This document shows, one piece after another, positions 61,236-63,239 of a stretch of 64,000 bases of DNA. Origin of the DNA: Aestuariivirga litoralis (GTDB lineage Bacteria > Pseudomonadota > Alphaproteobacteria > Rhizobiales > Aestuariivirgaceae); the NCBI RefSeq assembly GCF_003234965.1, contig NZ_QKVK01000002.1, forward strand, positions 248,001 to 312,000, read 5' to 3'. Under the pieces are notes generated by a model that did no database searches, was not told the DNA's origin, and was given only the letters and a program-made list of their open reading frames with translations. The stretch's first letter is position 1, and each line of letters starts with the position of its first letter. The position numbers were made by a program, and so were the translations under genes.

Positions 61236-62459
61236 CTACCCCGCCGCCGGCCGCAGCTGGCCCTGCGCCGGGAAGGGCCGGAACAGCATGGCGATGAGGA
61301 AGGCGCCGATGCCCATGCCGAAGCTGGCGATGTAGAGCCAGCCATAATCGCCGGTGCGGTCGAAGATCCATCCGCCGAAGACCGGGCCAATGGCCATGCC
61401 GAGGCTGCCCGCCATGGAGGTGCCGCCAATGATGGTGCCCATCATGCGCAGCGGGAAGTTCTCACGCGCCAGCACGGCGTAGAGCGGCATGGTGCCGGCA
61501 TAGACGAAGCCGAAGAGCGCGGCGACGGAGTAGAAGGCCGCGAGATCCTGCGCGAAGAAATAGCCGAGCGCGCCGAAGGCCTGGACGAGAAGGCCCGCCA
61601 CCAGCAGCAGCTTGGCGCCGAACCGGTCGGCCAGCACACCGAAGCCCAGGCGCCCCGCCATGCCGGCGAGGCCTTCGACGGAGTAGATGGTGACCGCCGT
61701 CATGGCCGGGATGCCGCAGGCCACGGCATAGCTCACGGTGTGGAAGATGGGTCCTGAATGCGTGGCGCAGCAGAAGAAGTTGGTGAGCGCCAGCACGATG
61801 AAGGGGGCGGAGAGCAATGCACCCCGCGTGCTCATGCCCGGCTGGCCGGAAACATCCAGCGATGCGGCGGCGGCGGGATTGGCCAGGGCCGGCGGGCGGC
61901 GCAGCAGGAGAGCCAGCGGAACGAGGATGACCGCCGCAACGACGGCCATGATCTGGTAGGAGGTGCGCCAGTCATGCTGGGCGATGAGCCAGGCCGCGAA
62001 GGGCGACATGGTGACGGGCGCCATGCCCATGCCGGCCGAGACAAGCGACACGGCGAGGCTCCTGTGCGTGTCGAACCAGCCGGTGACGGTGGCCATGGTG
62101 GGTGCGAAGAAGGCAGCCATGGCGCCGCCGATGAGCACGCCATAGATCGCCTGATAGGCGGCGAGCGAGGTCACCATGCTAAGGCCCCACAGGCTGGCGC
62201 TGAGGATGACGGCCCCTGCCAGCACCACGGCGCGCGGGCCGAAGCGGTCCGACAGCATGCCCCAGACCATGCTGCCCGCTGCCATGGCGAGGAAGGCGAT
62301 GGTCATGGCGGCGGAAATGCCGGTGCGCGTCCAGCCCGTCTCCTCCGCGATGGGAATGATGAAGACGGGGAGCGAGAACATGCAGCCGATGGCCACGCAG
62401 CCGATGACGCCGCCTGCGGCGACGATGATCCAGCGATAGGTCTGGTCGGTCATTGTCAT
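61236..62459 (-). CDS. MFS transporter (OFA/monocarboxylate-like)
   Basis: 407 residues with 12 membrane segments. The MFS loop 2-3 motif reads GMLSDRFGPRAV and the central repeat LGFGVLADRFGAK. The overall layout resembles the oxalate/formate and monocarboxylate exchangers (TRTGISAAMTIAFLAMAAGSM). It starts five bp after the SRPBCC gene with AAGGA as ribosome site, so it belongs to the arsR-SRPBCC-MFS operon and is probably repressed by the ArsR protein. Confidence 0.9.
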   Translation of the reverse strand: MTMTDQTYRWIIVAAGGVIGCVAIGCMFSLPVFIIPIAEETGWTRTGISAAMTIAFLAMAAGSMVWGMLSDRFGPRAVVLAGAVILSASLWGLSMVTSLAAYQAIYGVLIGGAMAAFFAPTMATVTGWFDTHRSLAVSLVSAGMGMAPVTMSPFAAWLIAQHDWRTSYQIMAVVAAVILVPLALLLRRPPALANPAAAASLDVSGQPGMSTRGALLSAPFIVLALTNFFCCATHSGPIFHTVSYAVACGIPAMTAVTIYSVEGLAGMAGRLGFGVLADRFGAKLLLVAGLLVQAFGALGYFFAQDLAAFYSVAALFGFVYAGTMPLYAVLARENFPLRMMGTIIGGTSMAGSLGMAIGPVFGGWIFDRTGDYGWLYIASFGMGIGAFLIAMLFRPFPAQGQLRPAAG

Positions 62460-62464
62460 GTCCT

Positions 62465-62881
62465 TCAGGCGGCGCGGAACTGCAGCGGGAAGCGGTCCAT
62501 GAAATAGGACCAGCCCTCGCGGTGGGCTTCGCCATTGGCATTGCCGGGAAGGCCCGTGTGCACCAGCACCATGAGCGTGTCATGGCCCTGGGCGATGAAG
62601 CTCACCGTGACCAGCGTCTCCTGGCCTTCGGTGTAGGGCGACATCCAGCTGTGGCTGATGAGCCGGCCCTGCGCCAGTTCGATGAAGCGGCCGTAATGCG
62701 GCGTGTCGCTCATGCGGGCATAGAACAGGCCATCGGGCTTGCACTCCATGATGAGCTTGACGGCGGCATTCCAGGGCGTTCCCGGCACTTCGGGGTCGAG
62801 CCAGGCCGCATAGGCGGCCTGCGGCGTCGCCTGGATGGTGCGTTCGATGCGGATATCGAGGCTGTTTGCGGCGCGGTCCAT
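62465..62881 (-). CDS. SRPBCC/AHSA1-family protein
   Basis: 138 residues from the ATG at 62881, which overlaps the arsR stop as TGATG; the longer frame to 62965 lies within arsR. The START-like fold is visible in IRIERTIQATPQAAYAAWLDPE, AVKLIMECKPDGLFY and the C-terminal helix EGWSYFMDRFPLQF. ArsR-AHSA1 pairs are frequent in bacteria; the hydrophobic cavity probably binds a small ligand, but the function is unknown. Confidence 0.9.
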   Translation of the reverse strand: MDRAANSLDIRIERTIQATPQAAYAAWLDPEVPGTPWNAAVKLIMECKPDGLFYARMSDTPHYGRFIELAQGRLISHSWMSPYTEGQETLVTVSFIAQGHDTLMVLVHTGLPGNANGEAHREGWSYFMDRFPLQFRAA

Positions 62882-63204
62882 CAGTGCTTCTCCCTTTTTG
62901 CCTTGAAGTGTTGCTGGAACTGGTCGAGCCGCTCGGTCCAGAACTGCTCGTAACGGTGGATCCACGAGGCCGCCTCGCGCAGCGGTTCCGGCTTCAGCGA
63001 GATGAACACCTCGCGGCCCTTGCGGGTGCGCTCGATCAACCCTGCCCGCTCCATCACCTTCAGATGCTTGGTGACGGCGTTCAGCGCGGTGTCGAAGCCC
63101 TCCGCCACATCGGTGAAGCGCGCCGGCCCCTTCACCAGGCGCTCGATGATGATGCGCCGGGAGGGGTGGGCCATGGCGGTGAAGACGTCGGTGAGATGAT
63201 CCAT
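62881..63204 (-). CDS. ArsR-family repressor
   Basis: 107 residues. The winged helix is MAHPSRRIIIERLVKGPARFTDVAEGFDTALNAVTKHLKVMERAGLIERTRKGREVF. No CxC-type metal-binding cysteine pair is present, so it is of the non-metal group that goes with AHSA1 partners. It heads the operon with the SRPBCC and MFS genes. A perfect inverted repeat over its own promoter lies at 63211-63230, indicating autorepression. Confidence 0.93.
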   Translation of the reverse strand: MDHLTDVFTAMAHPSRRIIIERLVKGPARFTDVAEGFDTALNAVTKHLKVMERAGLIERTRKGREVFISLKPEPLREAASWIHRYEQFWTERLDQFQQHFKAKREKH

Positions 63205-63210
63205 TCTTAC

Positions 63211-63239
63211 ATTACACCATTAGGTGTAATATCAGTCAA
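63211..63239 (-). promoter_or_regulatory. Promoter and operator of the arsR-SRPBCC-MFS operon
   Basis: On the minus strand, TTGACT (63239-63234) and TGTAAT (63216-63211) are separated by 17 bases, each one mismatch from the sigma-70 consensus. The inverted repeat ATTACACC-4-GGTGTAAT (63211-63230) covers the spacer and the whole -10, the expected place for an ArsR operator. The predicted start point falls at or within a few bases of the ATG at 63204, so the transcript may be leaderless. Confidence 0.75.

Follow-up and report, generated by a model that had tools for sequence, protein, structure and literature searches.

An arsR-SRPBCC operon with a conserved arrangement of operator, promoter and predicted leaderless repressor start

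Leaderless repressor operons and the arsR locus of Aestuariivirga litoralis

Leaderless mRNAs of Proteobacteria have long been described gene by gene. The acuR-acuI-dddL operon of Rhodobacter sphaeroides was characterized by 5'RACE (10 clones starting at the AUG), by fusions, and by operator and promoter mutations, and acuR-lacZ reached about 7.5% of acuI-lacZ (PMC3017554). Its operator is an 8-bp inverted repeat lying over the promoter (TAATAGAC-n6-GTCTATTA), and the same report predicts layouts of this type in diverse lineages and names the mRNAs for two further repressors, lambda cI and Tn1721 tetR, as leaderless (PMC3017554). Leaderless starts are also established in the class of the host studied here, with 171 reported for S. 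meliloti (PMC3616915) and 192 starts exactly at the start codon reported for Bradyrhizobium, whose leaderless promoters carry TGnTA (PMC4842269). A survey of leaderless genes places a -10-like signal, TANNNT, some 12 bp upstream of the start (PMC3160421).

The window, i.e., the whole stretch of DNA analysed, comprises 64,000 nt of Aestuariivirga litoralis (NZ_QKVK01000002.1, 248,001-312,000, forward strand). Its arsR-SRPBCC operon is probably leaderless and autorepressed, of the kind demonstrated experimentally for acuR-acuI-dddL, but with a repressor of the ArsR family. As in the acuR operon, the repressor gene comes first, an 8-bp inverted-repeat operator lies across the promoter, and the repressor gene lacks a Shine-Dalgarno (SD) sequence while the next gene has one; acuR mRNA starts exactly at the AUG, and the arsR mRNA is predicted to do likewise. 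AcuR, however, is a TetR-family protein that senses acrylate and is expressed from a TTGATT/TATTAT promoter, whereas the operon described here pairs an ArsR-family repressor with an SRPBCC partner. Similarly, the predicted leaderless repressor message resembles those of lambda cI and Tn1721 tetR, although these belong to other protein families and are phage-borne and transposon-borne, respectively. With regard to the published survey, arsR has a -10-like box right before its start and no SD, but its TGTAAT does not fit TANNNT. In searches of open-licence PubMed Central articles, no listed title or abstract opening described the promoter layout of this ArsR-SRPBCC operon, and no article combining ArsR, SRPBCC, and a palindrome was listed.

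The first gene, arsR (62881-63204, minus strand), encodes a protein of 107 aa that matches the winged-helix ArsR domain models HTH_20 (PF12840, 41 bits, cut-off 27), HTH_5 (PF01022, 23.9 bits, cut-off 22), and NCBIfam NF033788 (66.8 bits, cut-off 55). It resembles ArsR/SmtB and SdpR-like autorepressors in the family winged helix and in a predicted operator overlapping its own promoter. It differs from these relatives in having no metal-binding cysteine and in scoring below the cut-off of the SdpR autorepressor subfamily (NF033789, 52.1 bits versus 100). Three ArsR relatives are found among solved structures. Metal- or thiol-sensing cysteines occur only in part of the ArsR/SmtB family, and none of the 107 residues here is a cysteine; hence, the inducer is likely to be non-metal, judging from the protein sequence. 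The second gene (62465-62881, minus strand; Pfam AHSA1, 2.3e-14) encodes an SRPBCC/AHSA1-like protein. Its start codon shares one base with the arsR stop, the last of the latter (TGATG), and follows an SD (GGGAGA, 62889-62894, minus strand) inside the end of arsR. The third gene encodes an MFS transporter (61236-62459, minus strand; Pfam MFS_1), and its start is more likely at 62453, with AAGGA 7 nt ahead. The expectation that the later genes would use normal ribosome sites or coupling was thus borne out.

Promoter, operator and start codon in the window and in related loci

Direct reading of the minus strand places a -35 hexamer, TTGACT, at 63239-63234, a 17-nt spacer at 63233-63217, and a -10 hexamer, TGTAAT, at 63216-63211. 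Six bases (GTAAGA, 63210-63205) separate the latter from the arsR ATG (63204-63202), which is the earliest in-frame start 3' of an in-frame TAA, with no alternative start upstream. The putative ArsR binding site is a perfect 8-4-8 inverted repeat at 63211-63230 (ATTACACC-N4-GGTGTAAT, with TAAT as the loop and no mismatch in the arms). Its right arm contains the -10 hexamer, and the palindrome as a whole spans the entire -10 plus 14 of the 17 spacer bases, so that promoter, repressor site, and start codon fit in about 40 bases. These readings agree to the base with the original prediction of a TTGACT-17-TGTAAT promoter, an 8 bp inverted repeat across spacer and -10, and an ATG whose A is the seventh base after TGTAAT. 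The description of the promoter as near-consensus was generous. It is the sole site in the window with at least 5/6 matches in both hexamers (16-18 nt spacing, 64 kb, both strands), but its -10 has G instead of A at the second position, and a promoter scanner demanding A there reported no promoter at this site. An A at this position is usually the most important base of the hexamer. A possible extended -10 (TGn), noted from the sequence and the comparison of loci as TGG at 63217-63219 on the minus strand (TGG-TGTAAT), may compensate for the imperfect hexamer.

Because perfect 8-bp inverted repeats are common in the window (30 with loops of 0-10, six of them with a loop of 4), the palindrome alone proves little, and the weight of evidence lies in its position. 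Within the organism's own genome (4.23 Mb), the palindrome has a single match at up to three mismatches; as a control, the reversed pattern gave two forward and two reverse matches.

To compare this arrangement among relatives, 84,980 genomes were scanned with a five-row alignment, which yielded 56 loci. The studied ArsR clade includes 40 of these and, with the window and L008, comprises 42 loci; the remaining 16 (L073-L085, L087-L089), at 35-45% identity, were set apart as other subfamilies. Duplicates (L005, L006, and L007 of L034, L039, and L035, respectively) were left uncounted. For L053, the aligned start was replaced by hand with an ATG lying 12 nt upstream, and the start of L041 was shifted by one codon; L069, which is truncated or frameshifted, was counted among the 42 as a miss. 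By their titles, the 42 loci represent 11 phyla, nearly all as metagenome bins, and related loci among them are not independent samples. They include a named strain, Rhizobium sp. BK376 (L067). Median pairwise ArsR identity is 70%, and the closest orthologues within the host's family have the same layout.

A palindrome with at least 13 of 16 consensus bases lies directly before arsR in 39 of the 42 loci, and each of the 41 full-length arsR loci has one operator copy. A -35 TTG keeps the spacing of the window in 32 of the 39, and occurs with a 15-18 nt spacer in 37 (read from printed sequences; the 15-nt spacers of L044, L063, and L068 were read by eye), whereas L045 and L071 have no TTG -35. 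The -10 is TGTAAT in 31 loci, TATAAT in five, and TGTATT, TGTAGT, and TTGAAT in one each. The five loci with TATAAT, four from Fibrobacterota and one from Actinomycetota, have GGTATAAT as their right arm; the palindrome loses its symmetry at just the base that creates the consensus hexamer, as expected if this hexamer is the -10. The gap between palindrome and start codon is 6 nt in 21 of the 39 loci, 7 nt in 15, and 5, 8, and 10 nt in one each. The arsR tree requires at least 11 changes in gap length, yet the gap has kept to this narrow range. The compact geometry of promoter and operator recurs in bacterial groups that are distant from one another.

In 36 of the 39 loci, the gap measures 6 or 7 nt, which would place +1 on the start codon, as in acuR, and on this basis we infer a transcription start at the A of the arsR ATG (63204, minus strand, plus or minus one base). 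If transcription from the same promoter began a few bases further upstream, the message would carry a leader of 2-5 nt and would not be truly leaderless. Start-site choice generally shifts by a base or two, and the loci with gaps of 7, 8, or 10 nt would suit such a leader, but the commonest gap, 6 nt, places +1 on the A itself, and we regard the short leader as unlikely, though by no means negligible.

Ribosome sites and loci in which arsR is not first

Ribosome sites separate arsR sharply from its partner gene. In the 39 loci whose operator lies directly before arsR, the best pairing with the 16S tail at -15 to -4 reached -4 kcal/mol or below in none of the arsR genes versus 35 of the SRPBCC genes (medians -1.5 and -7.9 kcal/mol; Wilcoxon P = 7e-8, relatedness ignored). 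Similarly, GGAG, GAGG, or AGGA occurs at -18 to -4 in 1/39 arsR and 33/39 SRPBCC genes. Together with the geometry in 39/42 loci, this difference supports the original prediction that the repressor mRNA has little or no leader. SRPBCC lies downstream of arsR in all 42 loci and in most of them overlaps its stop codon (in L039, the match lies 386 nt past the stop), so the comparison indicates an operon as well as the missing arsR SD. In L055 (254 aa) and L058 (250 aa), arsR and SRPBCC form one open frame, and this naturally occurring fusion suggests that the two act together.

The lack of an SD also bears on the possibility that arsR has an ordinary leader from a promoter further upstream, with the palindrome acting as a roadblock or as a secondary operator downstream of that promoter. 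The imperfect -10 at arsR and the 145-nt region that separates arsR from the start of a divergent sulfatase gene (from 63350), which could house another promoter, would allow for this. We consider such a leader improbable given the absence from the window of a second site with at least 5/6 matches in both hexamers, the conservation of -35 and -10 at the operator, the missing arsR SD in all 39 loci, and the poor conservation of columns -60 to -13 from the palindrome in the same loci (mean 0.09 bit versus 1-2 bits for most operator columns). The sulfatase was rejected as a partner of the operon, being found only in the window among the 42 loci, some of which have little upstream DNA.

Start codons provide a point against leaderless translation, which tolerates GTG poorly: four of the 39 loci start with GTG and 35 with ATG. 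In the acuR report, a GTG start was much reduced (PMC3017554), and all 171 leaderless starts reported for S. meliloti are AUG (PMC3616915). Other points that weigh against the proposed reading are the lack of a TTG -35 in L045 and L071, the 15-nt spacers of L044, L063, and L068, the G in the -10 of the window, the relatedness of the loci, and the quality of the bins.

Two full-length loci, L041 and L086 (Planctomycetota, one clade), have no operator at arsR. In both, an alpha/beta-hydrolase-like gene (translation read by eye) lies between operator and arsR, and the operator and promoter precede this gene, 976 nt (L041) and 986 nt (L086) upstream of arsR. The L041 promoter reads TTGCAT-17-TGTAAT; that of L086 has TTGCCA as its -35 and a 16-nt spacer. 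The hydrolase gene of L086 has AGGAGG ahead and a leader of about 50 nt, and that of L041 has GGAG ahead if its start is the GTGATG before a likely signal peptide (a weaker alternative is the TTG that lies in frame 8 nt downstream of the operator). Because the first gene here has a leader and an SD-like site, the promoter itself does not seem to force leaderlessness, which appears to go with the repressor being first; with n = 2 from one clade, this is a lead, not proof.

Proposed regulation and distribution of the module

Overall, we assign a probability of roughly 0.85 to the view that arsR, SRPBCC, and the MFS gene form a self-repressed operon, with an mRNA whose 5' end falls on the arsR start codon or no more than about one base away. 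TTGACT-17-TGTAAT would serve as the promoter for RNA polymerase, and the inducer-free ArsR dimer would sit on the palindrome, covering the -10 and the spacer, so that polymerase could not bind. Release of the repressor would give a leaderless mRNA from which ArsR would be translated at the 5'-terminal AUG, probably weakly, and SRPBCC and MFS from their own SD sites and by stop-start coupling. In this way, a single message would yield a small amount of repressor and larger amounts of enzyme and transporter. Binding of the ArsR protein to the palindrome is suggested by the co-occurrence of the two in 41/41 full-length loci. It is very improbable that the palindrome serves another regulator while ArsR acts elsewhere, given one operator in each of those loci and one in the organism's own genome, and given that L072 has both an altered recognition helix and a changed operator core.

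In L072 (2975-3110), the recognition helix reads SLNAVSKH versus ALNAVTKH, and the operator core TTAAACC versus TTACACC. From sequence, the two changes are a possible specificity pair. The consensus TTACACC-N4-GGTGTAA offers a ready predicted operator for the studied ArsR group.

The arsR tree mixes phyla (18 changes versus a least possible 10), and its starred branches force at least three changes for Acidobacteriota and at least two for Pseudomonadota. Transfer of the module between phyla is thus likely on phylogenetic grounds, though not proven, because bins can hold stray contigs. A phage origin was rejected, as viral contigs contain no relative of this ArsR and the sole match in a phage record is distant (36%), and so was plasmid spread of the clade, with only five matches, each at <60% identity. 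A forward search based solely on the DNA pattern, in a sample of 396 Acidobacteriota genomes, returned only the already known locus (1/396). It provided no independent confirmation; the single match indicates a rare module and a specific motif.

A repressor clade that locks operator, promoter, and start codon together in loci attributed to 11 phyla represents unusually broad conservation, and the SD-bearing partner gene provides a built-in contrast by which one could test directly whether leaderless translation is maintained to keep repressor levels low. We tentatively suggest, at somewhat less than even odds, that selection acts on operator, promoter, and start codon as a single unit of about 45 bp, which accompanies the repressor between phyla. 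Leaderlessness would then be a means of keeping the repressor output of a shared message low whatever the host, and not a by-product of the promoter, with a leader and ribosome site present when another gene is first (L041 and L086), and the wider ArsR-SRPBCC family may reach the same end via a start codon in mid-operator.

The third gene of the operon varies: the MFS homologue occurs only in the window, L034, and L035, and other third genes resemble, by eye only, hydrolases, glyoxalase-like, YCII-like, or second SRPBCC proteins.

A set of 70 ArsR loci at greater distance includes 25 in which a palindrome has an ATG at its centre (e.g., ATTCAACCACATGGTTGAAT), and in 21 of these 25, TTGAC lies 34-37 nt before this ATG, the spacing expected for leaderless starts (35-36 nt in the studied clade). 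In the other 45 loci, TTGAC lies 58-70 nt before the start in 29, 34-35 nt in five, 49 nt in one, and only at 15 nt in one; nine have none within the searched stretch. Start-in-operator loci may be a second type of predicted leaderless autorepressor; this is a lead only, because the start codons of the 70 loci were chosen by script. ATG-centred operators were seen upstream of arsR in L022, L029, L032, L073-L085, L087, L088, L091, L106, and L117.
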